Source: Acidobacteriota bacterium (lineage in GTDB: Bacteria > Actinomycetota > Acidimicrobiia > Acidimicrobiales > RAAP-2). From it: a stretch of DNA of 64,000 nucleotides. Numbering within the stretch: the stretch's first letter is position 1; each line of letters begins with the position of its first letter. The stretch spans positions 18,667 through 82,666 of the forward strand of contig JAGXBH010000006.1 in NCBI GenBank assembly GCA_018971185.1. The letters are read 5' to 3'. The notes under the pieces were generated by a model. The model saw nothing but the letters and a program-made list of their open reading frames with translations. It was not told where the DNA came from and did no database searches. Shown here in pieces: positions 22,536-43,796 of this stretch. Made by a program: the position numbers and the translations under genes.

Positions 22536-23462
22536 CTACTTCCAGACTCGGGGGTCGGCGAGGACCCTCTTCACCGCGGTCGTGAGTTGGTTCATCAATA
22601 GCCCCAGGCGCGGACCCCAGCGCGACGCCACGTCATCGTTCAGATTGACCACGTGCCCGTTCACGACCGCGTTCACCCTCGCGAACCCCGCTCGCGACGC
22701 GACCTTGGCCGGCGTGACGTGACAGCACACGGTGTCGGCCAGGAAGATCAACTTGGGATCGGCACTCACGACGTACTCCGCGCTCAGTTGGGGATACCCC
22801 GCGTCCGCGCTCGTCGCGTGGGGGTCGGCGATGTTCACCACGCCCAGCGACTTCATCAGGGCGCCCACGAAGGTCGAGCTGGTGAGTGAGTAGAAAGTGG
22901 GGTCCAACTCGTAGTAGACGCTGACCTTCTTGTGCGTCGGGTTGTGCACGGAGGCCACGTCGGCACTGATGGTGCGCTGCAGCGACGTCGCCAGGGCGTC
23001 AGCGGCGGACCGGTGACCGGTCAGCGACCCCAGCTGACGGATCTGGGCGAGTGCGCCGGCCAAGGAGGTCGGCGCGTCCTGGGCCACGACCTTGACGCCC
23101 AGCCTCGTCAGCTTCTCCATGATCGAATTGGCGTCGTAGGAGATGATCACGAGATCGGGTTTGGTCGCCGGCGACCCCGGGGTCGACCTGCAGATTCCGA
23201 TGATCGACTCGACGCTGGGATTGAGGGCGTTGATCCGCTTGGTCGGCAGTCCGCGGGTCGGGTAATTGGAGTCCGAATCGACCGCCTGGACCTGGGGTCC
23301 CGCCCCGATGGCGTAGAGCGTCTCGGTCGCGGTGGGCGACAAGGACACGACGCACGACGGTCGCGCTGGCGCCGCGGCGTGCGCGGCGGTGGCGGAACCA
23401 GCCAGGGGGACGGCGATCGATCCGACGATGAGGGCCAGTGCGACCCGGGGGACCTTGAACAT
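22536..23462 (-). CDS. Periplasmic substrate-binding protein (BtuF-like, cobalamin)
   Basis: Signal peptide; [31 protein letters not shown]; cobalamin riboswitch upstream. Confidence 0.88.
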
Positions 23463-23535
23463 GGATATCTCCTTTCCGTCGAAGTGGTGGGGACGACGGA
23501 TGGATATCCGAACGACCGCCCTTTACCTCGAGAGC

Positions 23536-23648
23536 TGTCTTCACAATCTCCTCGTCGCAGGCGACCTGGCTTCGTGGACGTGGTCCACTTACAGTTGCGG
23601 GACAGCGTTGGAATCTCACCAACTTCGCTGCTCCGAGGCACCCCGACT
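23536..23648 (-). ncRNA. Cobalamin (AdoCbl) riboswitch
   Basis: Minus-strand GGTGCC (23637-23642), CCCGCAACTGT (23591-23601), GCCAGGTCGCCTGCG B12 box (23556-23570), upstream of btuF-like gene. Confidence 0.88.
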
Positions 23649-23711
23649 CTAGCGCGTGGCGCGTGTCGGGGCGTGGTGAGGATGGCGTGGGCGCCGACAG
23701 AGTCGGCGGGG

Positions 23712-25427
23712 TCACATCTGCTCGGGGGCCTCGATGCCGAGGAGGGAGAGTCCCAGACGCAGGGTCCGCGCGGTGAGATCACAGAGAGCCAGGCGCTCGG
23801 TGCGGCTCGGCTCGGGGGCGCTCAGGACGGGACAGGCTTCGTAGAACGTCGTGAACCGCTGGGCGAGCTCGAAGAGGTATCCGCTCAGTCGGTGCGGGTG
23901 CAGGGTGGCCATGGCGGCGTCGACGGCCTCGGGGAAGGCGATCAGACCCCGCGCCAGGTCGCGCTCCGCGTCGGCACCGAGCGAGAACCTCGCGGCGCGA
24001 GGGTCCCACGCCGTCCCCAGGCGACGGAAGATCGAGCGCAACCGAGCGTGCGCGTACTGCAGATAGGGACCCGTGTCGCCCTCGAAGGCGATCATGCGCT
24101 CGAGGTCGAACACGTAGTCGCGCTGGCGGTCGTTGGACAGGTCGGCGTACTTGATCGCGGCGCGCGCGATCTGCGTGGCGAGTTGGTGTCGCTGCTCGGG
24201 GGAAAGGTCCTGAGAGCGCTGGACCAGCGCCGCCTCCGCGCGCTCGGTGGCCTCATCGAGCAGGTCGATCAGCTTGATGGTCTCCCCCGATCGGGTCTTG
24301 AACATCTTGCGGTCGGGACCGAGCACGTTGCCGAAGGCCACGTGCTCGCAGCGCAGCGCGGCGGGCAGCCACCCCGCGGCGCGCGCCACGGCGAAGACCA
24401 TCTCGAAGTGCTGACTCTGGGGGGCGCCCACCACGTAGAGCAACTCGTCGGCGTGGAGGTGGTCGACGCGATCGCGGATCGCCGCGAGGTCGGTCGCGGC
24501 GTAACCGAACCCCTCGTCGCTCTTCTTGACGATGAGCGGCAACGGCTCGCCCTCGCGATTGGTGAAGCCCTCGGGGAACACGCACAGCGCGCCCGCGCTC
24601 TCGACCAGGAGCCCCGCGGCGTCGAGGTCGGTGACGACGGCGTCGAGCATGTCGTTGTAGTACGACTCGCCCACGACGTCGTCGGGGGTGAGCGTCACGT
24701 CGAGCGCGCTGTACACCTCGGCGAAGTAGGCCACCGACTCGTCCACCAGGATCTGCCAGAGTCGACGGGTCTCGGGGTCGCCGCCCTGCAGGGACACCAC
24801 CCGCTGACGACTGCGCTCGCGGAAGTCCTCGTCGGACTCGAACTTCACCCGCGCGGCGCGGTAGAAGCCGTCGAGGTCGCCGATCGACAGCGCGGCCATC
24901 GCGGTCGCCTCGCCCAGGTCGACCAGGTGTTCGATGAGCATCCCGAAGGGCGTGCCCCAGTCGCCCACGTGGCTACGAGCCACGACCGAATAGCCACGGA
25001 AGCGGTAGATGCGCGCCAGGGCGTCGCCGATGACCGTCGAACGCAGGTGCCCGACGTGCATCTCCTTGGCGACGTTGGGCGCCGAATAGTCGATGACCGC
25101 CGTGCGGGGGGTGAGCGTCGCCACCCCGAGTCGCTCGTCATCCAACAGGGCGCGCAGGGTCTCGTCGAGGTACTCCGACGTGAGGGTCAGGTTGAGGAAG
25201 CCCGGGCCGGCCACCTCGACCTCGGCCACTCCCGAGAGGTCGAGCACGTCGAGGACACGCTGGGCCATCTCGCGCGGCGCCATCCCCTGGGACTTGGCGA
25301 GCGCCATGATCCCGTTGGCCTGATAGTCGCCTCGATCCGACGGCCGAAGGACGGGGTCGGCGCCCACCACCACGTGGTCGAAGGCGCTCTGCAGTCGGCT
25401 GAGGAGTACGTCGTAGGGGCAAGTCAT
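23712..25427 (-). CDS. argS: Arginyl-tRNA synthetase
   Basis: [23 protein letters not shown] (HIGH-like HVGH), [11 protein letters not shown]. Confidence 0.97.
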
Positions 25428-25505
25428 CGTCGTATTCTCCCACTTGCCCCGCACGCGCGGGCGCCAGGCCCCCACGCGCGAGGCAAAAAGGGGCAGAATG
25501 GTGTC

Positions 25506-28187
25506 ATGACCCCTTCCCTCAACTCCTTCAACGCGCTCGACAGCCTGGACGTGAACGGACGCACCCTGCAGTACTACTCGTTGCGCGCCAGTGGCCTCAG
25601 CGCCTTCGCCATCGACCGTCTGCCCTATTCGATCAAGGTCCTACTCGAGAACCTGCTGCGTCACGAGGACGGCGTCAAGGTGACCGCGTCGGACATCGAG
25701 GCGCTGGCCCGGTGGAGCGAGACACCCACCCGCCACGGCGAGGCCGCCGGCGACGAGGCCAAGGAGATCGCTTTCACCCCCGAGAGGGTCCTGATGCAGG
25801 ACCTGACCGGCGTGCCCGCCGTGGTGGACCTGGCCTCGATGCGCGACGCGATCATCGCGCTCGGCGGCGACCCGGCCAAGATCAATCCCCTCGTCCCCGT
25901 GGAGTTGGTCATCGACCACTCGGTGATCCTGGAGCGCACGGGAACGCCCGAGAGCTACGACCAGAACGTGGCCATCGAGTACGGACGCAACATCGAGCGC
26001 TACACGTTCCTCAAGTGGGCCCAGAGCAGTTTCGACCAGTTCCGCGTCGTCCCCCCGGGGATGGGAATCTGCCATCAGGTCAACCTCGAACACCTCGCGC
26101 GAGTCGTCTTCGAGAACCAGGGAGTGGCGTACCTCGACACCGTGGTCGGTACCGATTCGCACACCACCATGGTCAATGGGCTGGGCGTGCTCGGCTGGGG
26201 CGTCGGGGGCATCGAGGCCGAGGCCGGGATGCTGGGCCAGCCGACCTCGATGTTGATCCCGCCCGTCGTCGGGTTGCGCCTCTCGGGCGCGACGCGCGAG
26301 GGTGTCACCGCGACCGACGTCGTTCTCACCATCACCGAGCTGCTGCGACGCCAGGGCGTGGTCGGCAAGTTCGTCGAGGCCTACGGACCGGGCGTATCGT
26401 CGCTCTCGCTCGAAACGCGCGCCACCATCGGCAATATGTCGCCCGAGTACGGCGCCACCTGCGCCATCTTCCCGATCGACCAGGTCACCCTGGACTACCT
26501 GGCCTTCACCGGTCGTCCCGCGGCCCAACTCGCTCTGGTGGAGTCGTACGCCAGGGCCCAGGGTCTCTGGCACAGTGCCGAGTCGCCCGAGCCCACGTAC
26601 TCCGAGTACGTGGAACTCGATCTGGCGAGCGTCGAACCCAGTCTGGCCGGGCCCAAGCGCCCCCAGGACCGCGTGTCACTCTCGGGGGCGCGCGGCGCCT
26701 TCCGCAACGCCCTCGGACGCGAACCCAAGGAGGTGCTGGGCGTGGAGGCCGCGGCGCACCTGCGTGACGGCGCCGTGACGGTGGCCGCGATCACGTCGTG
26801 CACCAACACGTCCAACCCTTCGGTGCTCGTGGCCGCGGGCCTCGTCGCCAAGGCCGCCGTCGAACGCGGTGTCACCGTCAAGCCGTGGGTGAAGACGTCG
26901 CTCGCGCCGGGCAGTCGCGTGGTGATGGACTACCTCGAGCGCGCCCAGCTGGTCGGGCCGCTGGACCAACTCGGTTTCTACCTTGCGGGATACGGCTGTA
27001 CGACGTGCATCGGCAACACCGGACCCCTCCTCGACGGCGTCTCCGACGCGGTCAACGAACACGATCTCTCCGTGGTGTCGGTGCTGTCGGGCAACCGCAA
27101 CTTCGAAGGGCGCATCCACCCCGACGTGAAGCAGAACTTCCTCGCCTCGCCGCCGCTGGTCGTGGCCTACGCGCTGGCCGGCACCATCGACATCGACCTC
27201 TCCAGCGAGCCCCTCGGCGTGGACCGCGACGGAGCGGCGGTGTTCCTCGCCGACCTGTGGCCGAGCGACGCCGAGGTCGCCGCGGCCGTTCGCGCCTCGA
27301 TCACGCCCGAGATGTTCGAAGAGCGCTACGCCAGCGCCTTCAGCGGCGACGAGAGATGGCAGGGCGTGCCGACCACCAACGCCGTCACGTACGCGTGGGA
27401 CGACCGTTCCACGTACGTGAAGCTACCCCCGTACTTCGAGGGCCTCACCATGGAGCCGGGTCTGGTGCGCGACATCGACAACGCTCGCGTGCTGGCGAAG
27501 TTGGGCGATTCGGTCACGACGGACCACATCTCCCCCGCCGGCAACATCCGCCCCAACGTCCCCGCGGGTCGTTACCTGACCGACGGGGGTGTGTCGCCCG
27601 CCGACTTCAACAGCTACGGGACTCGGCGCGGCAACCACGAGGTCATGGTGCGCGGCACCTTCGCCAACATCCGGCTTCGCAATCAGCTGGCGCCCGGCAC
27701 CGAGGGCGGTGTCACCCGCAAGTTACCCGAAGGCACCGAGATGTCCATCTTCGACGCCGCCATGGCCTACCAGGCCGAGGGGACGCCGTTGTTGATCATC
27801 GGGGGCAAGGAGTACGGCAGCGGCTCGAGTCGTGACTGGGCCGCCAAGGGCACCAAGCTCCTGGGCGTCAAGGCCGTCCTGGTCGAGAGCTTCGAGCGCA
27901 TCCACCGGTCCAATCTGGTGGGCATGGGCGTCCTACCACTGCAATTCCTGGCGGGCGAGTCCGCCGCGACGTACGGCCTCGAGGGCGACGAGAGCTACTC
28001 GGTGCGCGGCCTCGACGCGCTCAACCGCGGTGAGACCATCAGCCGAGTGACCGTCGATGTGGTGCGCCCCAACGCCGAGCGGCTCTCCTTCGAGGTGCGC
28101 CTGCGCATCGACACGCCCACCGAGGCCGAGTACTACCGGCACGGCGGCGTCCTCAACTTCGTGCTGCGACAGTTGGCCCAGGCCTAG
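25506..28187 (+). CDS. acnA: Aconitate hydratase
   Basis: [26 protein letters not shown]...; [25 protein letters not shown]; 893 aa. Confidence 0.97.
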
Positions 28188-29914: not shown

Positions 29915-30652
29915 TCAGGCGGTGTTGACCACCCGGAAGGTCTCACCCAGTCGTTCGGGCCCCAAGCCGGCCGCGAGGGCGTTAGCGCTCGCCCAGTTGC
30001 GCATCGTTTCTTCGAGGTCGTCGCGATGACCCACCTGCGAGACGTGCGAGCGCAGGGCGGCGAGTTTGGTCGAGAAGCTGTCGGTGATGTCCACCACCAG
30101 GTTGGGGGAGTTCCCCCCCACCCAGACCGTCGCCACCGCGTGGGGGGCGTACCCCTCGGCCAGGAGTTCCGGAAAGGCGTGGGGGTTGCGGGCGTCGGGG
30201 TAGACCGCACGCAGTGTCGCCTCGCCCGCCGCCAGGTGATCGGGGTGCGACGCGTAGATGCGCTCGTAGTTCCGCTCAGGACTCTGGGTGATCACCAGGT
30301 CCGGTCGGTGCTCACGGATGACCCGAGCGATGGCCTTGCGCAGTTCGAGCGTGGGCTCGACCTGACCATCGGGCCAGCGCAGGAAGGTCAACTTCGTCAC
30401 GCCCACCACCGCCGCGGCCGCGGTCTGCTCGGACTCGCGAACCTCGGCGCGCTCCTGCTTGGTCAAGGTGGACTCGTCGCCCCCGGCGTCGCCCGAGGTG
30501 ACAAGACAGTACGCCACATCCACGCCCTGACTCGTGAGGACGGCCATCGTGCCGGCCATGCCGAAATCGATGTCGTCGGGGTGCGCCACCACTACGAGCG
30601 CACGCTGGATGAGCGGGTCGGGCTGGTGGACCTTCAGCACGGTGTCGCTCAC
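29915..30652 (-). CDS. PIG-L/LmbE-family deacetylase
   Basis: VVVAHPDDIDFGMAGTMA, SHPDHLAAGEAT; GTG start overlapping helicase stop. Confidence 0.92.
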   Translation of the reverse strand: MSDTVLKVHQPDPLIQRALVVVAHPDDIDFGMAGTMAVLTSQGVDVAYCLVTSGDAGGDESTLTKQERAEVRESEQTAAAAVVGVTKLTFLRWPDGQVEPTLELRKAIARVIREHRPDLVITQSPERNYERIYASHPDHLAAGEATLRAVYPDARNPHAFPELLAEGYAPHAVATVWVGGNSPNLVVDITDSFSTKLAALRSHVSQVGHRDDLEETMRNWASANALAAGLGPERLGETFRVVNTA

Positions 30653-31896
30653 GAGGCTGCGGACTCCTTGGTCGGGTCCCACGTCGCGAGGTCCTTCAGT
30701 CGAACGTCGTTCGAGAACACCTCCACGATGGGTCGCTTCATGGCGAGGCGTCGCATGATGACCTCGGCCTCGATCACCTGGTTCCACAGCAGCAGTGAGA
30801 CCACCACCCCCGTCGAGCCGGCCCGCGCGGTGCGACCGGATCGGTGCAGGTACGCCTTGTGGTCCTCGGGCGGGTCGAAGTGCATCACGCAGTCCACGCC
30901 GTCGATGTGCAGGCCGCGCGCCGCGACGTCGGTCGCGACGAGCACCGGAAGCTTGTCCGCACTGAAGTCGGCCAGGGCCTTCTCACGCTGGCTCTGTCGC
31001 AGGTCCCCGTGGATCGCCGCCGCGTCGACGCCCTCCTTGTGGAGTTGCTCGACCAGACGGTCCGCGCCGCGCTTGGTCCGACAGAAGATGATCGTCTTGT
31101 CGAAGGAGTTGCAGATGGCCGCCGCCACCTTGATGCGGTCCATCTGGTGCACGTTCAAGAAGTGGTGCACCATGAGCGAGACCGTCTGGGTGTCGCTCGC
31201 CACCTCGTGGAAGACCGGGTCCGTGAGGTAGCGCTTCACGAGCCGGTCGATCGCACCGTCGAGCGTCGCCGAGAACAGCAATGTCTGGTGCGGGTGCTGG
31301 GCGATGCGCCGCAGCACCCATTCGACCTGGGGCATGAAGCCCATGTCGGCCATGCGGTCGGCCTCGTCGAGCACCAGGACGTCGAGACCCTCGACGTTGA
31401 GCTCGCCGCGATCACCCAGGTCGATCAGTCGACCCGGGGTCGCGATGATCACGTCGCACCCCTTGCGCAGTGACTTCACCTGTCGTTCGATGTCGGCGCC
31501 GCCGTAGACGGCGTTCACGTGCAACCCGAGGGCGGCGCCCAGTGGCTCGAGCACCTCGTGCACCTGCACCGCGAGTTCGCGCGTGGGCAACAGGACCAGG
31601 CCCCGCGGTCGCGCCGCGGCACCCTCGCCCCTCTCGAGCCGCGCACTGGCCGCGACGCGCTGGAGCAGCGGCAGGCCGAAGCCGAGGGTCTTGCCCGAGC
31701 CGGTCTTGGCCTTGCCGCACACGTCGCGGCCGGCGAGGGCGTCGTGGATCGTCATGGCCTGGATGGGGAAGGCGGTGGTGATGCCCTGGGCGGACAGGAC
31801 GGCGACGAGTCCCTCGGCCACGCCCAATTCGGCGAACGTCTTCTTCGTGTCGTACGAGTCCTGGGACACGGCGGTCGGGACGGTTTCACTACTCAT
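30649..31896 (-). CDS. DEAD-box RNA helicase
   Basis: AKTGSGKTLGF, PTRELAVQ, VLDEADRMADMGF, SATL, HRSGRTARAGSTG. Confidence 0.96.
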   Translation of the reverse strand: MSSETVPTAVSQDSYDTKKTFAELGVAEGLVAVLSAQGITTAFPIQAMTIHDALAGRDVCGKAKTGSGKTLGFGLPLLQRVAASARLERGEGAAARPRGLVLLPTRELAVQVHEVLEPLGAALGLHVNAVYGGADIERQVKSLRKGCDVIIATPGRLIDLGDRGELNVEGLDVLVLDEADRMADMGFMPQVEWVLRRIAQHPHQTLLFSATLDGAIDRLVKRYLTDPVFHEVASDTQTVSLMVHHFLNVHQMDRIKVAAAICNSFDKTIIFCRTKRGADRLVEQLHKEGVDAAAIHGDLRQSQREKALADFSADKLPVLVATDVAARGLHIDGVDCVMHFDPPEDHKAYLHRSGRTARAGSTGVVVSLLLWNQVIEAEVIMRRLAMKRPIVEVFSNDVRLKDLATWDPTKESAAS

Positions 31897-32061
31897 GGGC
31901 CTACGGTCGTTTCTCGGTCGGACCCGGAACCGGCGTTCGTAAGGAGGGCCCAAGCTCACTTCACGAGCTTCTCCCCTATTCTAGGGGCGAGGTCGACCTC
32001 GGCCGACACAACACGGCCACGAACCCGATCGCCACCGGTCGGCCCCGACAGAAGGAGAACC

Positions 32062-32526
32062 ATGACTCGACTCGAAGTCGGCGCGACAGCCCCACCGTTC
32101 TCGTTGCCCAACCAAGACGGCGAGGTCGTCACCTCGAACTCACTCGCCGGCCAACGCTTCGTCCTCTACTTCTACCCCGCCGACGACACGCCCGGCTGCA
32201 CCGTCGAGGCCTGCGGCTTCAATGACGAGTTGGCGGGCCTGGGCGATCTCGGTGTGCGCGTCGTGGGAGTCTCGCCCGACGACGCGCCGTCGCATCGGGC
32301 GTTCCGCTCGAAGTTCGCTCTGGCCTTCGACCTCCTGAGCGACCCCTCGACCTCGACCATGGCCGCCTACGGCGCCTACGGCGAGAAGACGCTCTACGGC
32401 AAGAAGGTGGTGGGCGTGATCCGCTCGACCTTCGTGATCGGCCCCACCGGTCTCATCGAGCACGTCTGGTACGGCCCGCGGACCAAGGGCCACGCCCAGC
32501 GAGTGCGCGCGGCCATCGAGGCTTAG
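32062..32526 (+). CDS. Peroxiredoxin (BCP/AhpC-TSA family)
   Basis: YFYPADDTPGCTVEACGFND. Confidence 0.94.
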   Translation: MTRLEVGATAPPFSLPNQDGEVVTSNSLAGQRFVLYFYPADDTPGCTVEACGFNDELAGLGDLGVRVVGVSPDDAPSHRAFRSKFALAFDLLSDPSTSTMAAYGAYGEKTLYGKKVVGVIRSTFVIGPTGLIEHVWYGPRTKGHAQRVRAAIEA

Positions 32527-34026: not shown

Positions 34027-35151
34027 ATGGCTCTCGAGAAACCCCAGTGGCGCGAACTCTTCAGTGAGGTCGTCACCTCAGGACTCTGCACCGGCTGCGC
34101 CGCCTGCGTGGTGGCCTGCCCCCACGACGTCTTGGACTACGACGCCAACGGTGGCGCCTACAAGCCCTTCCACCTCGACATCGACGGCGGCCGCGAGGAC
34201 TGCACGCACGGCGTCAAGGGTTGCACGATGTGCACGCGCGCCTGCCCGCGCTTTCGCAACTGGGAGTCGGAGATCGACCAGCACCGCTTCGCACGCGAGC
34301 GCACCGACGAGGAGGTCTTCGGCATCGGCGACGTCCTCCTGGCGCGCTCCACGGACCCCCGCATGGTCGAGAACGGGCAGGACGGCGGTTTCGTCTCCAC
34401 CCTCTTGATACACGCGCTGGAGAACGACCTCATCGACGCCGCGCTCGTCAGCGGCCTCGAGGGGGACGGCTCGACGTGGCGCGCCGAGCCGCGGGTGGTG
34501 CGCACCCGCGACGAGGTCCTCGATACCGCCAAGTCGCGCTACACCTACAGCGCCAACCTGCTCGCGTATCCGCGCGCCGTCGAGTTCGGCGCCGAGCGGA
34601 TCGCGCTCGTGGGCATGGGGTGCATGGCGTCGGCCCCGGGCGCGATGCAGACGCGCAAGGCCGGCAAGATCGCGCGTCGCCTGAGCCTCACCATCGGGCT
34701 GCTCTGCTCCAAGACCTTCGACGACTCGATCTTCGAGGAGCTCTTCGAGAAGGACTACGGGCTACGTCGGGCCGACATCGTCAAGATGAACATCAAGGGA
34801 GTGTTCCAGATCTGGACGCGCGACGGCGCCTACCACGAGGTCCCGCTCAAGGAGGCGCACGCCTTCACCCGCGAGGGCTGCACGACCTGTCCCGATTTCG
34901 CCGCCGAGCACGCGGACCTGTCGGCGGGAGGCATCGGCGCCTTCAACGACTGGACCCTGGTGATCGTGCGCACCGACAGCGGCCGCGAGATGATGCGCGC
35001 CCTCAAGGACGCCGGACTGATCGAGACGCGCCCCGGGGACGACGACCCGGGTGCGGTCGCCCTCTTGCACCGACTCGCCCAGGTCTCGCGCAAGCGCTGG
35101 CCCGAGTCCGCGGCGCCGGGGCCGCGTCGGATCCCCGTCCGCGGGTCGTAG
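34027..35151 (+). CDS. Coenzyme F420 hydrogenase/dehydrogenase beta-subunit-like (FrhB/FdhB family) ferredoxin-type protein
   Basis: CTGCAACVVACP and CTMCTRACP 4Fe-4S motifs; FGIGDVLLARSTDP; DLSAGGIGA. Confidence 0.87.
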   Translation: MALEKPQWRELFSEVVTSGLCTGCAACVVACPHDVLDYDANGGAYKPFHLDIDGGREDCTHGVKGCTMCTRACPRFRNWESEIDQHRFARERTDEEVFGIGDVLLARSTDPRMVENGQDGGFVSTLLIHALENDLIDAALVSGLEGDGSTWRAEPRVVRTRDEVLDTAKSRYTYSANLLAYPRAVEFGAERIALVGMGCMASAPGAMQTRKAGKIARRLSLTIGLLCSKTFDDSIFEELFEKDYGLRRADIVKMNIKGVFQIWTRDGAYHEVPLKEAHAFTREGCTTCPDFAAEHADLSAGGIGAFNDWTLVIVRTDSGREMMRALKDAGLIETRPGDDDPGAVALLHRLAQVSRKRWPESAAPGPRRIPVRGS

Positions 35152-35156
35152 TCGCG

Positions 35157-35801
35157 ATGGCGCGAACCCCTCGAGACCCGGCGACCACCATCCTGCTGGT
35201 GCGTCACGGCGTGACGGGCACCACCGGAAAGGTCCTGCCCGGGCGGGCCCCCGGACTTCACCTCTCGGCGCGTGGCCACGAACAGGCGCAGCTTGCCGCC
35301 GCTCGCCTCGGCGAACTCGAGGTCGCGCCGAGCGCCCTCTACGCCTCGCCGCTCGAACGCACCCGTGAGACGGCCGCGCCCATCGCGCGGCGCCTGGGCG
35401 TGCGCACCAAGGTCGATCGCGGGCTCCTCGAGTGCGATTTCGGTGATTGGACCGGTAAGTCGTTGTCGTCGTTGCGCAAGAAGCCCGAATGGCGTGCGGT
35501 GCAGAGCGCGCCGAGCACCTTCCGATTCCCGCAGGGGGAATCCTTCGCCGAGATGCAGCACCGGATCTGGACCACTCTCGAACGCCTCGCGCGCGCGCAC
35601 CGGGGCGAGAGGATCGTCGTCGTGAGTCACGCCGACCCGATCAAGGCCGCCGTCACCTTCGCCCAGGGCGTGCCCCTGGACCTCTTCCAGCGGACCGTCA
35701 TCTCGACGTGCTCGATCAGCGCCATCGTCCTCTCCGACGCGACGCCCCTCGTGGTGAGCGTCAACAACACCGGATCCCTCAAGGAGCTCATCGCCTCATG
35801 A
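35157..35801 (+). CDS. Histidine phosphatase family protein (MSMEG_4193-like putative phosphomutase)
   Basis: ILLVRHGVTGTTGKVLPGRAPGLHLSARG; SPLERTRETA; VVSHADPIKA. Confidence 0.9.
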   Translation: MARTPRDPATTILLVRHGVTGTTGKVLPGRAPGLHLSARGHEQAQLAAARLGELEVAPSALYASPLERTRETAAPIARRLGVRTKVDRGLLECDFGDWTGKSLSSLRKKPEWRAVQSAPSTFRFPQGESFAEMQHRIWTTLERLARAHRGERIVVVSHADPIKAAVTFAQGVPLDLFQRTVISTCSISAIVLSDATPLVVSVNNTGSLKELIAS

Positions 35802-36280
35802 AGTACGAATTCGACGCACCCGAGAAGGTCATGGTGGGAGTCCGCGGCGAGGTCGGCAATCGGCTCTTCCTCCTTCAGGCCCGACAGGGGCGTCGCCTGG
35901 TCATCTTGAAGTGTGAGAAGGTCCAACTGGCGGCCCTCGCGCAGTGGATCTCCCAGGTCATCGACGACATGGGCCGCCCGGGCCACCTCCCCGACGACTT
36001 CACCCTCGAGCCCGAGTACGAGGCCGACTTCACGGTGGGTGACATCGCCATCGCCATCGACGAGGAGAACGAGCTCCTCGAGGTCACCTTCGAGTCCGCG
36101 GGTGAGGACGACGACGTGGCGACCATCGCCTTGACCAAGGAGTGGGCGGGTGGGCTCGCCATCGCCATCACGCGACTGGTCGAGGCGGGGCGCCCACCCT
36201 GCCCCCTGTGCGGTGGCCCTCTCGACCCTCGTGGCCACGACTGCCCGCGCACGAACGGTCACCGCGCGCCCCTGCGCTGA
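35798..36280 (+). CDS. DUF3090 family protein
   Basis: MKYEFDAPEKVMVGVRGEVGNRLFLLQARQG; C-terminal CPLCGGPLDPRGHDCPRTNGH; ATG overlaps upstream stop. Confidence 0.88.
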   Translation: MKYEFDAPEKVMVGVRGEVGNRLFLLQARQGRRLVILKCEKVQLAALAQWISQVIDDMGRPGHLPDDFTLEPEYEADFTVGDIAIAIDEENELLEVTFESAGEDDDVATIALTKEWAGGLAIAITRLVEAGRPPCPLCGGPLDPRGHDCPRTNGHRAPLR

Positions 36281-36282
36281 GC

Positions 36283-36990
36283 GTGCGACGCGACGACCAG
36301 ATCGAACTGCTGCGCCACGGTGCGTTGCACGTCGAGGGACGCGTCGCCGGTTCCTCGAACCAGGCGCTGCTGGTCTCGGTGTGCCTCGGCGGCACGAGCG
36401 CGCTGGCCTGCTACAAGGCGGAGGCGGGTGAGCGGCCCCTCTGGGACTTCGAGGAGGGGCTCTGGCGTCGAGAGGTGGCGGCGTGGGAGCTCGATCAGCT
36501 CCTCGGCACCGACCTCGTCCCGACGACGGTCGCTCGCGAGGACGCCCCCTTCGGCGTCGGCTCCCTGCAGTGGTGGGTCGAAGGAGCCACCGACGACCAC
36601 TACTTCACCCTGCGTGAGAAGGAGGACCTCCTCCCCTGGTTCACCGACCTCTGCGCGTTCGACGTCGTCGCCAACAATGCCGACCGCAAGGGGGGTCACA
36701 TCCTCTTCGACTCCGCGCGGTGCTGGGCCATCGACAACGGGCTGTGCTTCCACGAGGAGGACAAGTTGCGCACGGTGATCTGGGAGTACGCCGAGCAGAC
36801 CCTCCCCGACCGGCTACTCGAACCGCTCGCTCGCCTCGCCCAGGGCGAACTCGGCAACCTCGGTCACCTCCTGAGTGCCGAAGAGCTCGACGCCACCGCG
36901 CGCCGCGCCCACGGGCTCCTCCTCGCCAGCAGTTTCCCCTCGCCCGACGACGACCGCGACTGGCCGCCCTACCCCTGGCCGTTGATCTGA
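36283..36990 (+). CDS. SCO1664-family protein, PI3/PI4-kinase-like fold
   Basis: FDVVANNADRKGGHIL...WAIDNGLCFHEEDKLRTVIW; GTG start 3 nt after DUF3090 stop. Confidence 0.85.
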   Translation: MRRDDQIELLRHGALHVEGRVAGSSNQALLVSVCLGGTSALACYKAEAGERPLWDFEEGLWRREVAAWELDQLLGTDLVPTTVAREDAPFGVGSLQWWVEGATDDHYFTLREKEDLLPWFTDLCAFDVVANNADRKGGHILFDSARCWAIDNGLCFHEEDKLRTVIWEYAEQTLPDRLLEPLARLAQGELGNLGHLLSAEELDATARRAHGLLLASSFPSPDDDRDWPPYPWPLI

Positions 36991-38451
36991 TCAGGGGACG
37001 ATCAGATCACCCTCGAGTTCGGGGACGCCCGACTCGAGCAGCAAGAGCGTGACGAGGGCGCCGACCCCGAAGAAGCCCGCCGCCCACCAGAAGGCCACGG
37101 CGTACCCGTGCAGGGTCGCCGCCACTGCGCTCGCGCACGTCGATGTCGCTCCCGTCGGCCGGCAGGCGAGCGCCCGGCGCGACGTGATCACCGCGATGGT
37201 GTTGAGGGTGGCGATGCCCACGGATCCCCCGATCTGCTGCGCGGTACTGACCATCGCCGACGCCGCGCCGGCGTCGCGCGGCTCGATACCCGCGGTCGCG
37301 GTCGCGGTGGACGGCGCGTAGATCAATCCCAGACCGAGTCCCGTCACGATGAGTCCTGGCATGACGTGTCCGAGGTAGTCGGCGTGGGCGGGCAGCTTGG
37401 TGAACAGGATCATGCCCATCATCCCCAGGAGCATCCCGACGGGCACCAACGGACGCGGCCCCACGAGGGCCAGGAGGCGGGCACTGGCCAGCGACGCGGA
37501 GAACGCCAGGGCCGCCACGAGCGGCAAGAAGAGGAGACCCGTCTTCATCGGCGAGTAGCCCAGGGTGTTCTGCAGGTAATACGCCAGGAACAACGAGATG
37601 CTGAAGATCCCGATGTTGGTGAAGAAGAGCGCGATGAGTGACCCGCCACGAGTGCGGTCCTTGACGATGCGCAGGGGTAGCAAGGGGTGGGCCGAGCGGC
37701 GCTGCCACAGCACGAAGACGACGAGGAGCACCGCGCCGACGCCCAGACTGAACCAGGTGTCGAAGTTCCCCCAACCCGTGGTCACCGCGTGGCCGAGCCC
37801 GAAGACCAGCGCGAACAACCCAGCGCTGGCCAACACCGTACCGACCAGGTCGAGGTGGACCGCGCGCTCGCCGCGTCCGCGTTCGACGAAGAGGATGACC
37901 CCGACCATCGACAGGGCGGCGAAGAAGAGGTTGATCGTCAGACACCAGCGCCACGACGCCCACTGGGTCAGCGCGCCACCCAGCAAGAGGCCGATGGCGG
38001 CACCGGATCCGCCGACCGCCCCGAAGATCGAGAAGGCCGTGGCGCGTTCGCGCGGCTCTCGGAACGTGAGCGTCAACGCCGCCAGGGCCGCGGGGGCGAG
38101 CAGCGCGCCGAAGGCGCCCTGCACCGCTCGAGCGCAGACGAGTGCCGCGAAATTCCGCGCCGCACCACCCACTGCGGACGCGAGCGCGAACCCGACCAAC
38201 CCGACCATGAGCGACGCACGCCGGCCCCAGAGGTCGCTCAGTCGACCGCCCAGGAGCATGAGCGAGCCGAAGGATAGGGCGTAGGCCGTGATGAGCCACT
38301 GTCGATTGGCCACTGAGAAGTTGAGGTCGACCTGGGCGCGCGGCAACGCGATGTTGATGACCGTGGAGTCGAGGGCGACCATCAGCTGCGACACGCTCAC
38401 CGTCATCAGGACCCACCACCGACGGGCGTGTGACGTGGCGATGTTGTCCAT
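36991..38451 (-). CDS. MFS transporter (DHA2/EmrB-QacA-like)
   Basis: VALDSTVINIALPRAQ motif; 14-TM length. Confidence 0.93.
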   Translation of the reverse strand: MDNIATSHARRWWVLMTVSVSQLMVALDSTVINIALPRAQVDLNFSVANRQWLITAYALSFGSLMLLGGRLSDLWGRRASLMVGLVGFALASAVGGAARNFAALVCARAVQGAFGALLAPAALAALTLTFREPRERATAFSIFGAVGGSGAAIGLLLGGALTQWASWRWCLTINLFFAALSMVGVILFVERGRGERAVHLDLVGTVLASAGLFALVFGLGHAVTTGWGNFDTWFSLGVGAVLLVVFVLWQRRSAHPLLPLRIVKDRTRGGSLIALFFTNIGIFSISLFLAYYLQNTLGYSPMKTGLLFLPLVAALAFSASLASARLLALVGPRPLVPVGMLLGMMGMILFTKLPAHADYLGHVMPGLIVTGLGLGLIYAPSTATATAGIEPRDAGAASAMVSTAQQIGGSVGIATLNTIAVITSRRALACRPTGATSTCASAVAATLHGYAVAFWWAAGFFGVGALVTLLLLESGVPELEGDLIVP

Positions 38452-38535
38452 AACGTTGCTTCTCAGCCTAAGGAGTGCGCGTCGCCGTACGCTGGCGAAA
38501 ACGCCGACGCACCGGAACTTCTAAGGAACAAGGGA

Positions 38536-39492
38536 CTACGCCCGGGCCTTCAGGAGCTCAATCAGCGCGGGAAGGACTCGCTGCACGTCGCCAACGACAC
38601 CGAAGTCGCTGATGGCGAAGATCGGCGCGTCGGGATCCTTATTGATGGCGATGACGTTGGCGGCACCCTTCATGCCGACCATGTGCTGCGTCGCGCCCGA
38701 GATCCCGCAGGCGACGTAGAGGTCGGGCTTGACGGTCTTACCCGTCTGGCCCACCTGGTGCGAATACGGCACCCAGCCCGCGTCGACGATCGCACGACTC
38801 GCGCCCGGTGCGCCGTCGAGCAACCTGGCCAACTCCTCGACGAGCGCGTACGAGGAGGCGTCGCCCAGACCTCGTCCGCCCGACACCACGACCTTCGCGT
38901 CCTCCAACGCGGGACCGTTGCGCTCCTCGACGTGCGACGAGCGAATCGTCGCCGTGCGCGACGAGGTGACCGGTGTCACGCTCTCGCGCAGCGCCACGTC
39001 GACGCCGTCGGGCGTCGCGGAAAAGGACTTGGCGCGAACGACGAAGAGCCCGGGTGCGCTATCGCGCAGGCGCGCCAACACGGTGTGGGTGCCCCCGAAG
39101 ATCGGGTGCTCACTCTCGAGGGTGGCGCCGTCGCGAAGTCCGGTCACGTTGGTCAGCACCGGCGTGTCGAGTCGCGCCGACAGCCGGCCCGCGATGTCGC
39201 GTCCGTCGTTGCTCGCCGGGATCAGCACCGCGTCGGGGGTCTCCCCCTCCAGCAGGCTTGCGACCGTGTTGGCCACCACGCTGGCCGGCAGGATCGCGCC
39301 TAGGTCACCAAGGTCCCAGAGTCGACTCGCGCCGTAAGAACCGACCACTCGTGCGACGTCGTCGTTCGCGCCCCAGGTGATCGCGGTGACCGTCGCGCCG
39401 AGTCGTCGCGCCTCGCTGATGAGCTCCTTGGAGGTCGTGGTGACGTCGCCTCGCGCCGGCTCGGCCAGCACCCACAGGTTCGACACACTCAT
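38536..39492 (-). CDS. etfA: Electron transfer flavoprotein alpha subunit
   Basis: VVSGGRGLGDASSYALVEELARLL; SGATQHMVGMKGAANVIAINKDPDAPIF. Confidence 0.96.
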   Translation of the reverse strand: MSVSNLWVLAEPARGDVTTTSKELISEARRLGATVTAITWGANDDVARVVGSYGASRLWDLGDLGAILPASVVANTVASLLEGETPDAVLIPASNDGRDIAGRLSARLDTPVLTNVTGLRDGATLESEHPIFGGTHTVLARLRDSAPGLFVVRAKSFSATPDGVDVALRESVTPVTSSRTATIRSSHVEERNGPALEDAKVVVSGGRGLGDASSYALVEELARLLDGAPGASRAIVDAGWVPYSHQVGQTGKTVKPDLYVACGISGATQHMVGMKGAANVIAINKDPDAPIFAISDFGVVGDVQRVLPALIELLKARA

Positions 39493-40271
39493 GATGCACT
39501 CCCCGCGAGGATCTTGATCCTCTCGAGGAACGCCACGATGCGCGCCGCCCCCTCACCGTCGTCCACGTACTTCTCGCCGGCGTTCTTGGTCGCAGCGAGC
39601 TCGACGGACACGACCTCCTGGCGCGGGACCAGGGCACTGGCGTCGAGTCCGAGGTCCGCCACGCTGAGGACCTCGACCGTCCGGGACTTGGCCGCCATGA
39701 TCCCCTTGAAGGTGGCGTAGCGCGGCTCCACGACGCCCGCGGTCACCGTGACCACCGCGGGCAGCGCGGCGACCACCTCGTCGTAGCCCAATTCGGTCTG
39801 ACGATGGACCACGACGTCGCCACTCTCGACGGCCACCGACGTGGCGAAGGTGAGCGCGGGAAGCCCGAGCAACTCAGCCAGTTGCACGGGCAGCGTGCCC
39901 GTATAACCGTCCGAGGACTCCGTCGCGGCGAGCACGAGGTCGGGCACGTCACGCGAGATCACCGCGGCCAGCACCTTGGCGGTGGTCAAGGCGTCGGCCC
40001 CCTTGAGGAGGGGGTCCGAGACCACCGTCGCGCGCATCGCCCCCATCGCGAGGGCGCTACGGATTCCGGTCACGTCCGTCGCGTCACCCATTGAGACGAG
40101 CGACACCTCGCCGTCACCCGACGCCTCCACCAGGCGCAGCGCCACCTCGACACCGTAGGTGTCCGCCTCGTCGAGGATCAGCTTGCCCGATCGATCCAAG
40201 CGATGCTCCGCGTCCAGTGACGGGGTGGCGGCCGGGTCCGGAATCTGTTTCACGCAGACGACAACGTTCAT
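39489..40271 (-). CDS. etfB: Electron transfer flavoprotein beta subunit
   Basis: MNVVVCVKQIPDP; DLVLAATESSDGYTGTLPVQLAELL. Confidence 0.96.
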   Translation of the reverse strand: MNVVVCVKQIPDPAATPSLDAEHRLDRSGKLILDEADTYGVEVALRLVEASGDGEVSLVSMGDATDVTGIRSALAMGAMRATVVSDPLLKGADALTTAKVLAAVISRDVPDLVLAATESSDGYTGTLPVQLAELLGLPALTFATSVAVESGDVVVHRQTELGYDEVVAALPAVVTVTAGVVEPRYATFKGIMAAKSRTVEVLSVADLGLDASALVPRQEVVSVELAATKNAGEKYVDDGEGAARIVAFLERIKILAGSAS

Positions 40272-40294
40272 GACACCAATCTAGGTCACGTCCC

Positions 40295-40984
40295 TCACGC
40301 GGTAGGGCCGAGACCGTCACGGAGTCGGCGCGCGAGCACCACGTCATCGGTGATCACGGCACCGACACCGAGTTCGAGCATCCGTCCGATGTCGCGGGCC
40401 AGGTTCGGGGTCCACACGTGCAGTTCGACTCCGCGCTCTCGCGCCTCGTCCGCCACCGCCGCGTTCACCCGTGAAAACGCGAGGTGGGCGGAGGTCAGAC
40501 GATGCTTCGTCACCTGATCAAGCACGAACGCCGCGGGGCGGCGCTCCGCCAGCCAGCCCACCCGTCGCTCCGGCGAGACCCGTCGCACCTCGTCGCAGAT
40601 CGCCAGGGAGAAGCTCGACACGAGGCACTGCGCCGACACGCTCGAGGCGTCGAGGAAGGCCGCGACGTCACGGGCCACCGCCAAGTTGTACGGAACCGAA
40701 CGAGTTGATTTTATTTCAACGTTGATCCGCAGTGGACCGGCCGCGACCAGGGCGTCGTCGAGTGACGCGATCTCTCCTCCATGGGCGAGGTCGTCTCGCC
40801 GCGTCGCGGGTATCGACTGACCCCCCACGGTGCGGTCATGGTTCACGATCAGGAATTTGTCGGAGGTGAGCCACACGTCGAACTCGACACCGTCGGCTCC
40901 GACGTCGCGGGCGGCCGCGATCGCACCGGTCGAGTTCTCGGGGAAATGGACGTGGTGCCCGCGGTGGGCGAAGATTGAAGTCAC
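40295..40984 (-). CDS. Glycerophosphodiester phosphodiesterase family protein
   Basis: IFAHRGHHVHFPENSTGAIAAARDVGADGVEFDVWLT. Confidence 0.93.
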   Translation of the reverse strand: MTSIFAHRGHHVHFPENSTGAIAAARDVGADGVEFDVWLTSDKFLIVNHDRTVGGQSIPATRRDDLAHGGEIASLDDALVAAGPLRINVEIKSTRSVPYNLAVARDVAAFLDASSVSAQCLVSSFSLAICDEVRRVSPERRVGWLAERRPAAFVLDQVTKHRLTSAHLAFSRVNAAVADEARERGVELHVWTPNLARDIGRMLELGVGAVITDDVVLARRLRDGLGPTA

Positions 40985-41037
40985 GATAAGAATTGTGACA
41001 TCCTGGCGTCCGACGTCGCCGACTCGACAAAAAAACC

Positions 41038-41067
41038 TTGAAAATACAGGCTCATCCGAGTAAAATT
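41038..41067 (+). promoter_or_regulatory. Candidate sigma70-type promoter for whiB-like gene (TTGAAA-N18-TAAAAT)
   Basis: TTGAAA at 41038-41043, TAAAAT at 41062-41067 in a locally AT-rich stretch. Confidence 0.6.
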
Positions 41068-41088
41068 GCCTTCCCGCCCTTAACGGCC

Positions 41089-41110
41089 CCCGGTGACGAT
41101 ACTCCGGGGT
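41089..41110 (+). promoter_or_regulatory. 5'-UTR hairpin CCCCGG-N10-CCGGGG upstream of whiB-like gene
   Basis: Perfect 6-bp inverted repeat followed by TTTCTCGTT, then AAAAGG SD and ATG at 41138. Confidence 0.55.
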
Positions 41111-41137
41111 TTCTCGTTAATTTAAAAGGAATTTGTC

Positions 41138-41434
41138 ATGTCGTTGATTTGGAACCGTACTCACGCTTGGGACGACGCCGACTGGCGCGCCAGCGCCGCA
41201 TGTCGCGACACGGAGCCCGAGTTGTTCTTCCCCGTCGGAACCACGGGTATGGCCACCGACCAGATCGAATCCGCCAAGCGGGTGTGCATCAACTGTGACG
41301 CCCAGAAGCACTGCCTCGAGTTCGCACTCGCGACCAACCAGGAGTCGGGCGTATGGGGCGGGACGACCGAGGACGAGCGTCGCAAGTTGCGCAAGCAGTG
41401 GTTGGCGGCGCGTCGGCGCATGCAGCAGAACTAG
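41138..41434 (+). CDS. WhiB-family Fe-S transcriptional regulator (WhiB1-like by context)
   Basis: Four Cys (ACRD..., CINCDAQKHC), GVWGGTTEDERR. Confidence 0.95.
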   Translation: MSLIWNRTHAWDDADWRASAACRDTEPELFFPVGTTGMATDQIESAKRVCINCDAQKHCLEFALATNQESGVWGGTTEDERRKLRKQWLAARRRMQQN

Positions 41435-42921
41435 GACACCATCTCGGTCGGTACGACCACGCGAATCAGGGTCCCACCACCGTCGCGCTCATCCACGGTG
41501 GTCATGTCGATGGTCCCGTTGAGTTGCGATCGCACGAGGTCGCGCACGATGGAGAGACCCAGACTGGTGGCGCCTTCCAACTTGAAGTCCTCCTGCAATC
41601 CTCTGCCGTTGTCGCGGATCTCGGCCACGGCGAACTCGCCGTCGAGACTGAGGTCGAGGGTGACGATGCCCACGTGCTCGTCATGTTCGTCATCCTCGTC
41701 GCCGAAGTCGATGAAAGCGTGCTCGACCGCGTTGGTCAACAATTCGGTGAGGGCCAGGGCTAGCGGCGTCGCGAGATCCGTCGGCAGGGTGCCGAGCTCA
41801 CCGTTCACCACGATCTCGACGGGGTGCAGGGCGAGCACCGTGTCCTCGACCAACAGGACGACCGAACGCACGATCTCGTCGAACACGACCTCCTCACCAG
41901 GTTCGCGCGAGAGGACCTCGTGCACCACCGCGATCGACCGAACTCTGCGCTCGGCCTCCTGCAGGGCCAGCACCGTCTCGTTCTCATCACTCCGACGCGC
42001 TTGAAGGCGCAGGAGCGAGGAGATGGTCTGGAGATTGTTCTTCACCCGGTGGTGCACTTCGCGCACCGCCGCTTCCTTGTTCAGTACCAGGCGATTGAGC
42101 TGTCGGAGATCCGAGACGTCGCGCAGTAGCACCACGACGCCGGTCACGGTCCCCGCGTCAAAGAGCGGAACACAGTGGAAGAGGATCGCGACATCGCTCG
42201 AGCGATCGACCTCTTCCATCGCGGGGATCCCGTACTCCAGGCAGCGCTCCACCACGCGCAGCCGCAGGCCCGCCGCCGTGAAGGTCTTGCCCTCGATCGC
42301 GGCGTAGACGCCCAGCCGGTGCAGCGCGTTCGTGGCGTTGGGTGTGGCGAACTCCACCGCGCCGACGTGGTCGATCAGGATGATCCCGTCTCCCACCCGG
42401 GGCATCCCCGGTCCCGCGACGGTGTCCTCGCGATAGGGGAACGTGGCGTCGGAGACCATGGAGCACAATCTCTCGAAGATCGAGAGGTACGCCTGCTCGT
42501 ACAACGAAGCCGGTCCGCGTAGTGGCCCCTGCAGACGCACCAGCACGGCGATCACCCGACCGTCGAAGCGCACCGGCACGCACCAGACCGGCACCGACTG
42601 ATCGACGCCGGGCAGGTCGACCTCGCCCACCGTGCGCTGCGCACCGAGGAAGGCCTCGCGCACGAGTGGCCATTGCAGGGAGGATTGCGTGGTGCCGACG
42701 AGGTCGTCGACGATGAGCGTGGAGCGGTTGTTCGGTCGAACTTGGCCCAGGACGACGAACGACGAGACGCCGGCGACCTGCTCATCCGGTGCCACGAGGA
42801 CCATGTCCGAGAAGGAGAGGTCCGCCAGTAGCGACCACGACGCGGTCAGTCGCAGGAGGTGGTCGATCGCCGCGTCCGAGAGCGAGGTGTGGTCCTCGCA
42901 CAATTCCGCGAGCGTCGTCAC
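41431..42921 (-). CDS. Sensor histidine kinase, PdtaS-like (HisKA_2 type)
   Basis: EVHHRVKNNLQTISSLLRLQARR; HATPase LTELLTNAVEHAF; GTG start at 42921 overlapping PHP gene stop. Confidence 0.92.
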   Translation of the reverse strand: MTTLAELCEDHTSLSDAAIDHLLRLTASWSLLADLSFSDMVLVAPDEQVAGVSSFVVLGQVRPNNRSTLIVDDLVGTTQSSLQWPLVREAFLGAQRTVGEVDLPGVDQSVPVWCVPVRFDGRVIAVLVRLQGPLRGPASLYEQAYLSIFERLCSMVSDATFPYREDTVAGPGMPRVGDGIILIDHVGAVEFATPNATNALHRLGVYAAIEGKTFTAAGLRLRVVERCLEYGIPAMEEVDRSSDVAILFHCVPLFDAGTVTGVVVLLRDVSDLRQLNRLVLNKEAAVREVHHRVKNNLQTISSLLRLQARRSDENETVLALQEAERRVRSIAVVHEVLSREPGEEVVFDEIVRSVVLLVEDTVLALHPVEIVVNGELGTLPTDLATPLALALTELLTNAVEHAFIDFGDEDDEHDEHVGIVTLDLSLDGEFAVAEIRDNGRGLQEDFKLEGATSLGLSIVRDLVRSQLNGTIDMTTVDERDGGGTLIRVVVPTEMVS

Positions 42922-43796
42922 GAGGTGGCGCGCAGTGGCACCATGACCCGCTGGCGACCCTCGTAGGACGCGAGTTGCTGGACCCCGCGTGCTTCGAGGA
43001 GGTCGGCCAGGTCCTCGGCTCGCGATCCGACCCGTTCTCGGCCGTGCGCGTCGGAGGCAGTGGTGAACGTGACCCCGCGTGCCACCAGGCGATCCAAGAA
43101 GCCCTCGGCCGGGTACTGCTCGCCCACCGGCTTGAACCAGCCCGCCGACGAGCACTCCACCGATACGTCCGCGGCCGCGGCCGCGGCGGCCATACGATCC
43201 CACAGAGGCTCGGGATCCGAGGCGACGAAACTCGCTACCTTGATGACGTCGGGGTGGGCCAGGACGTCGACGACCCGGGCGGCCGCCAATTCCTCGAGTG
43301 CCAACGTGTAGTCAGCCCAACTCTGGTCGACGTCACGGGTACGCCACTCGGCCATGTGAAGGGCATTGTCGATATCGTCGAACTGCCACGTGTTGAGCCA
43401 GTGCACCGAGCCGATGAGGACGTCGAAGGGGTACTGACGCAGGAGCCCGGCGACGTCGTCCATCTGGTCGCGGTAGTAATCGACCTCCAGGCCCACCTTC
43501 ACCGGCAGTCCCTCCGATTTGGCCCGCTGGGCGAAGCTGACGTAGGCCTCGAGCGAATTGCGCGCGTGGAAGTCGAAGTACTCCGCCATGAGCGGTGCCG
43601 TGGGCTCGTGCCCCCACCGGGTCCAGAAGTCGCCCACCGTCGCACGCATCTCGACGAAACGGTAGAGGTGCTCGGTCAGCGCGAGCTCGTTCACCCCGTG
43701 GCGAGCGGCCTCCTCACAGTAGGCCGCCACCTGGTCGAGTCGATAGTCGACCGACGAGTCCTCGTGACTCCACAGATGAAGGTGGTAATCGATCAC
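42918..43796 (-). CDS. PHP-domain histidinol-phosphatase-like protein
   Basis: MIDYHLHLWSHE; LALTEH; VDVLAHPDVIK; TTASDAHG. Confidence 0.92.
   Translation of the reverse strand: MIDYHLHLWSHEDSSVDYRLDQVAAYCEEAARHGVNELALTEHLYRFVEMRATVGDFWTRWGHEPTAPLMAEYFDFHARNSLEAYVSFAQRAKSEGLPVKVGLEVDYYRDQMDDVAGLLRQYPFDVLIGSVHWLNTWQFDDIDNALHMAEWRTRDVDQSWADYTLALEELAAARVVDVLAHPDVIKVASFVASDPEPLWDRMAAAAAAADVSVECSSAGWFKPVGEQYPAEGFLDRLVARGVTFTTASDAHGRERVGSRAEDLADLLEARGVQQLASYEGRQRVMVPLRATS

Follow-up and report, generated by a model that had tools for sequence, protein, structure and literature searches.

The closest described relatives of the locus reported here are a set of three actinobacterial genes, encoding a histidine phosphatase (MSMEG_4193, TIGR03848), a DUF3090 protein (TIGR03847) and a SCO1664-family kinase (TIGR03843). 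The three families are defined in NCBIfam, which describes them as a three-gene system without an assigned function. The mycobacterial version is Rv2133c-Rv2134c-Rv2135c, where we take Rv2133c and Rv2134c to be the kinase and the DUF3090 protein. Our subject is a divergent copy of this trio at positions 35157-36990 of a 64 kb stretch of DNA (the window) from a 2.18 Mb genome that is 89% complete (genome G000, contig 30). We conclude that the trio probably forms a reversible phosphorylation system, and we find that neither mycothiol nor coenzyme F420 explains it.

A review describes SCO1664 as invariably linked to mycothiol genes, in this case mshC (PMC4255298). Rv2135c is reported to be a weak acid phosphatase that does not act as a mutase (PMC3866925), and apart from this weak activity we found no published function in the open-access literature that would explain the trio, in agreement with an earlier prediction from the DNA sequence (the original prediction), which held that these families lack an assigned function. 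We also noted reports that MSMEG_4192 insertions are over-represented after dibucaine (PMC10127668), that the ClpC1 interactome includes MSMEG_4192 (PMC10433963), and that an Rv2134c ortholog is among the hits of a rifampicin screen of bacille Calmette-Guérin (PMC11329110).

The locus and its gene families

Four open reading frames follow one another on the + strand from 34027 to 36990:

34027-35151, + strand, iron-sulfur flavoprotein of the FrhB/FpoF type (PF04432 122.9 bits, PF04422 74.1 bits; below the equivalog cut-offs)
35157-35801, + strand, histidine phosphatase of branch 1, MSMEG_4193 / TIGR03848 type (PF00300 E 1.2e-47; TIGR03848 197.3 bits)
35798-36280, + strand, DUF3090 protein (PF11290 104.8 bits; AlphaFold predicted local distance difference test score (pLDDT) 92.4, predicted template modelling score (pTM) 0.80)
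36283-36990, + strand, SCO1664-family kinase (TIGR03843 218.7 bits; AlphaFold pLDDT 95.2, pTM 0.92)

A 5 bp gap separates FrhB from the phosphatase, the phosphatase and DUF3090 genes share an ATGA overlap (35801/35798), and the kinase follows after 2 bp (36280/36283). The kinase is above the curated TIGR03843 cut-off of 172.4 bits. TIGR03848 is the best NCBIfam match of the phosphatase, just under its cut-off of 203.85 bits, and the DUF3090 protein is likewise just under the curated TIGR03847 cut-off (107.7 bits against 117.25) and above the PF11290 gathering score of 27. We let both assignments stand because the Pfam scores and the gene order confirm them. The families named in the original prediction are thus the right ones, and the coupling it had read into the last three genes was recovered with the same boundaries and in a conserved order. 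A promoter and terminator scan found nothing.

Compared with the actinobacterial set, the window has the same families, order and coupling. It differs in its neighbours: FrhB lies upstream and, past a gene for a transporter of the major facilitator superfamily (MFS), EtfA/EtfB lie downstream, and we found no mshC in the neighbourhood of the kinase. The trio adjoins mshC in Actinomycetes, as in the mycobacterial version, but not in the window's class.

The kinase

Searching the kinase model against the PDB with Foldseek gave type II phosphatidylinositol 4-kinase (PI4K-II) alpha as the best match (E 2.6e-8), followed by PI4K-II beta, Fam20C, Fam20A, Hydra Fam20, Rio1 and CtkA, with TkArkI also among the matches (E 3e-4). 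The sequence profile matches PI4K2B (E 4e-4) and FAM20A (E 2e-3). In the window protein we could place the ATP lysine (K45), the glutamate (E64), the catalytic D134 (in NNADRKGGH) and the metal-binding D151 (DNG/DHG); these residues, together with R135 and K136, are invariant in all 147 rows of the kinase alignment, which contains one sequence twice. H139 replaces the usual metal-binding Asn in 146 of the 147 rows. Since the profile alignments put DRKGGH opposite DRGNDN of PI4K-II and DRHHYE of FAM20A, H139 stands at the metal-binding Asn/Glu position.

The model therefore shows a predicted kinase fold of the PI4K-II/FAM20 type with its catalytic residues intact, and the motif ADRKGGHIL...IDNGL, which had led the original prediction to propose a kinase-like protein, is the catalytic and metal-binding pair of that fold. 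The fold and the order of the catalytic motifs are common to all three groups, and the DR-x(3)-N/E/H and ID(N/H)G motifs align. In contrast, the trio kinase is minimal (about 235 amino acids), has His in place of the Asn of PI4K-II and the Glu of FAM20A, and carries GERPLWDFP and KLRTVxW as motifs of its own. As modelled, it would work like a PI3/PI4 kinase but is not filed as a member of PF00454 (23.6 bits against a gathering score of 27.1). Its closest sequence relatives are from actinobacterial metagenome genomes, several of them labelled Acidimicrobiaceae, which makes a host from Acidimicrobiia very likely. A search of viral contigs gave nine pattern matches, none of which was confirmed.

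The phosphatase and the DUF3090 protein

The catalytic motifs of the histidine phosphatase (RHG, SPLER, E and SHAD) are intact and conserved over 72 loci, showing an active site that is, as read from sequence, complete. Its nearest solved relative is phosphoserine phosphatase 1 (E 3.6e-18), and the nearest solved relatives have small-molecule substrates, among them phosphoserine and alpha-ribazole phosphate.

The model of the DUF3090 protein has the predicted element order bbbba-bbba, which is two strand-strand-strand-(strand)-helix repeats, and then a C-terminal tail resembling a zinc ribbon (CxxC...HxC) in which C135, C138 and C149 are invariant and H147 nearly so. Besides these zinc ligands, the conserved residues are Gly, Pro, Arg, Phe, Glu, Lys, Gln and Asn. 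There is no position in the DUF3090 sequences at which Ser, Thr or Tyr is conserved at 75% or more, and for this reason we rejected the protein as a phospho-substrate. A sequence search against the PDB found nothing. In Foldseek the protein comes closest to repeats I-II of human PURA (probability 0.99, E 0.011, template modelling score about 0.5, root-mean-square deviation 10.9 angstrom), which we take as no more than a lead, since the Actinomycetota DUF3090 proteins are all acidic (72 of 72, net charge -6 to -29); some of those from Chloroflexota are not. DUF3090 has no close solved relative and is probably a zinc-ribbon protein of unrecognised fold.

Conservation and natural dissociation of the trio

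We profiled 179 Actinomycetota genomes for the kinase and DUF3090. Both were found in 74 and neither in 104; DUF3090 occurred alone in a single genome, where a contig end cuts off the kinase side, and the kinase never did. For synteny we took 72 neighbourhoods, clustered their open reading frames and drew the gene orders. Four loci were cut by contig ends, and the 68 in which all three genes could be read, window included, all had phosphatase, DUF3090 and kinase in this order on one strand. With order and strand identical in 68 sampled loci, the coupling is far beyond chance. The junction between phosphatase and DUF3090 is a 4-base ATGA overlap in about half of the loci.

Linkage is looser in Chloroflexota than in Actinomycetota. 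Among 151 Chloroflexota genomes the kinase is present in 82 (one more is doubtful) and DUF3090 in 101, with 79 having both, three only the kinase, 22 only DUF3090 and 47 neither. Twenty-three kinase genomes did not read as DUF3090-kinase: in 18 of them DUF3090 lies elsewhere in the genome, in one it is about 6 kb away, in two it is adjacent but reversed, and in two it is absent. The kinase-free Chloroflexota have DUF3090 in 22 of 69 genomes, a background that its retention with the kinase clearly exceeds (kinship ignored). This co-retention without linkage is our best evidence for a functional connection of kinase and DUF3090, as it cannot be put down to hitch-hiking within a single operon.

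The phosphatase and the kinase also occur together without DUF3090. In Arthrobacter, Kocuria and Citricoccus the two genes are of the same families, in the same order and adjacent, with no DUF3090 between them and with divergent genes for an AAA+ ATPase (AAA_5/ChlI-like) and a VWA protein beside the pair. DUF3090 has no match anywhere in the Kocuria and Citricoccus genomes; the Arthrobacter genomes carry it elsewhere. A similar case is the second copy (L052) in genome G008, and the Corynebacterium glutamicum control genome matches the kinase and not DUF3090. In a maximum-likelihood tree the kinases of the Micrococcaceae pair group with Acidimicrobiia kinases, those of the window's order, with support of 85/83 that is not decisive. 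The grouping suggests that the pair kinase was acquired by horizontal transfer, and a stand-alone pair with an Acidimicrobiia-like kinase indicates that phosphatase and kinase can move as a unit.

DUF3090 can be found with another phosphatase as well. In six Chloroflexota loci it has no adjacent kinase and is directly followed by a Cys-based PTP-SAK phosphatase of the dual-specificity type. The loci of the two dissociated forms are:

Phosphatase-kinase pairs without DUF3090, Micrococcaceae: L135, L161, L171, L172, L173, L177, L179, L052
DUF3090 with PTP-SAK phosphatase, Chloroflexota: L265, L266, L267, L269, L270, L278

A putative reversible phosphorylation system

Both enzymes of the trio are intact as read from sequence and model, and the most economical reading of the set is the reversible phosphorylation circuit that was originally predicted. 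Our leading explanation, which we hold tentatively, is that kinase and phosphatase oppose each other on a single phosphate ester, and that DUF3090 serves them as a zinc-binding adaptor or regulator. The kinase would add a phosphate to a shared substrate and the histidine phosphatase would remove it. We expect the same phosphate to be made and removed because the two intact enzymes are coupled in one unit and can move as a pair. The relatives of the phosphatase and the PI4K-II/FAM20 kinship of the kinase favour a small hydroxylated compound or a lipid headgroup over a protein as the substrate. DUF3090 may bind the kinase, the substrate or both without being phosphorylated itself; the role of adaptor or regulator is suggested by its co-retention with the kinase, its lack of a conserved phospho-acceptor and its absence from the Micrococcaceae pair.

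Several points weigh against this explanation. The kinase and the phosphatase could act on different substrates. Many Chloroflexota have the phosphatase away from the other genes, or none was found (it is unlinked in three Anaerolineae genomes, at 175-187 bits), and therefore a strict kinase-phosphatase pair is not universal. Our co-occurrence counts are plain genome counts that ignore kinship, and protein kinases (Fam20C, CtkA and Rio1) are among the nearest folds of the kinase.

A more specific version is also possible, and we hold it more loosely. Here the trio would be a self-contained system of two phyla, made up of a minimal PI4K-II/FAM20-type kinase with a metal-site His, a histidine phosphatase and a zinc-ribbon adaptor whose fold is unrecognised, and its phosphate ester would lie outside the mycothiol and F420 pathways.

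Alternative explanations

The protein-kinase matches Fam20C, CtkA and Rio1 would fit a protein-phosphorylation switch, in which the kinase marks one or more proteins, the histidine phosphatase erases the mark and DUF3090, a small accessory protein, serves as scaffold or targeting factor. Histidine phosphatases of the SixA type do act on proteins. However, the phosphatase of the trio is closest to small-molecule phosphatases, the closest kinase fold is that of a lipid kinase, PI4K-II, and DUF3090 has no conserved Ser, Thr or Tyr, so we consider a protein switch unlikely, if still credible.

The FrhB gene directly upstream was read in the original prediction as a possible functional clue pointing to F420. 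The protein has both FrhB_FdhB domains, N and C (Pfam E 1e-20 and 1e-35), and two N-terminal 4Fe-4S motifs, but it stays below the equivalog cut-offs of frhB (176.9 bits against 331.5) and FpoF (137.8 bits against 475). Of the 13 loci from the window's class, 10 have FrhB within the fetched flank of the trio; among the 60 from other classes there is not one. It was present in 38 of a further 48 Acidimicrobiia-type loci, where a reverse-strand gene resembling uracil-DNA glycosylase stands between FrhB and the phosphatase in 23 of the 38; only in nearer relatives of the window does FrhB closely adjoin the phosphatase. In the window's class the FrhB block goes on with genes for EtfA, EtfB, a glycerophosphodiesterase, WhiB and a histidine kinase. 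FrhB is part of this conserved chromosomal block and not a component of the trio, although in the window's clade it is probably co-transcribed with it. Given the 0 of 60 loci outside the class and the intervening gene, we rejected FrhB as a functional partner, and the clue was not borne out. The original prediction had itself named a lack of conservation of FrhB with the triad as refuting, and on that count this part fails; it had also named a failed kinase-fold prediction, and there it stood.

It remains to weigh a system in which the trio serves the synthesis, salvage or regulation of F420 or F420 precursors and FrhB is the enzyme that uses the coenzyme. CofD is present in 71 of 75 Actinomycetota trio genomes and in 85 of 101 Chloroflexota genomes with DUF3090, including 21 of the 22 that lack the kinase, and FrhB shares a chromosomal block with the trio among members of the window's class. 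The association of CofD with the trio is real, but genomes without CofD keep the trio. G008, reported as 100% complete, is one of four Actinomycetota trio genomes without F420 synthesis, 16 Chloroflexota DUF3090 genomes also lack CofD, and the C. glutamicum control matches the kinase and not CofD. Conversely, DUF3090 is missing from 30 and 7 CofD genomes of the surveyed phyla, and joint loss in reduced lineages may inflate the association. A partial match to CofD is present in the genome of the window itself. We therefore rejected an F420 requirement, while the statistical association remains, and regard an F420-linked function as improbable.

Mycothiol fares somewhat worse as an explanation. 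The proposal would be that the phosphatase is MshA2 (N-acetylglucosamine-inositol-phosphate phosphatase) or that the trio regulates MshC. Using the mshC profile, we found true mshC in 15 genomes, all of which have the trio, and mshC lies after the kinase in families f26, f31, f35 and f38. The invariable linkage of the review holds here only inside families with true mshC, and not in all of them, as in G008 mshC is on a different contig from the trio. Moreover, 60 of the 75 trio genomes have no true mshC: 21 of these have an MshC-like protein under the cut-off, and about 35-39 do not have even that. The kinase is also widespread in Chloroflexota. We rejected mycothiol and MshA2 as the general function, and consider this proposal very improbable. 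The profiling against mycothiol and F420 genes that had been suggested as a check on the trio, carried out here with mshC and CofD, supports neither link as its general role.

The only MshC-like protein of the window's genome is on another contig (G000:C3:61119-62228, 432 bits against a cut-off of 485). Such proteins under the cut-off are common to many genomes of the window's class and to some other families; they are distinct from CysS-level matches (about 280-310 bits) and may be an unrecognised group of cysteine ligases.

Two further candidates were dropped. Ino1, for inositol synthesis, is present in 72 of 75 trio genomes but also in 53 of 104 non-trio genomes, and three trio genomes lack it, so we rejected an Ino1 requirement. 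In the window, a PIG-L deacetylase frame at 29915-30787 has BshB1/BshB2 as its nearest families but scores well below the cut-offs of both, and at 41 bits against a cut-off of 224 we rejected it as MshB.

Archaeal ArkI acts on tRNA, and a last proposal, that DUF3090 with its PUR-like repeats and zinc ribbon brings the kinase and phosphatase to RNA for reversible nucleic-acid phosphorylation, could draw on this and on the PURA and TkArkI matches, but we think it remote because the PURA match does not reach the customary E threshold and has a large deviation, and DUF3090 is acidic in every Actinomycetota sequence, though not in every Chloroflexota one.

Neighbouring genes and other observations

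The neighbours of the trio differ between families: enolase-DUF501-Ppx-AMP ligase in f9, Pho/Pst in f15, ProRS/Era/RecO/UppS in f17, fumarase in f41/f44/f46, EtfA/EtfB in the window's class and homoserine dehydrogenase in Anaerolineae. Most of these names come from reading the sequences and not from family scans. We rejected a shared pathway inferred from these neighbours, as no pathway recurring across families was found.

Downstream of the trio in the window, 36991-43203 on the other strand holds the MFS transporter, EtfA/EtfB, a histidine kinase resembling PdtaS and a glycerophosphodiester phosphodiesterase. Loci of the window's class share the conserved Etf-GlpQ-WhiB-histidine-kinase block. 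The frame at 22932-28187 is 1751 amino acids long and has aconitase domains only from residue 942, with no Pfam match at E 0.001 in the first ~940 residues; its true start may be further downstream. The PrxQ-like peroxiredoxin frame at 31519-32526 (335 amino acids) has ~180 residues without a family match ahead of the AhpC/TSA domain, and this long N-terminus may be a start-codon artefact.

What the trio may mean

To the three families already defined, this analysis adds their wider distribution, the joint retention of unlinked genes, the forms in which the set is split up, a structural assignment for the kinase with its His substitution, and evidence against both cofactor links. The trio spans large parts of Actinomycetota, mycobacteria and Streptomyces included. 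The usual clue to its role has been the mshC linkage, which leads to mycothiol; in the wider survey the linkage proves to be local. The Micrococcaceae pair without DUF3090 and the unlinked components in Chloroflexota are sharper handles. If our explanation is confirmed, bacteria would have a conserved relative of the lipid and secretory-pathway kinases of eukaryotes that comes with its own erasing enzyme.

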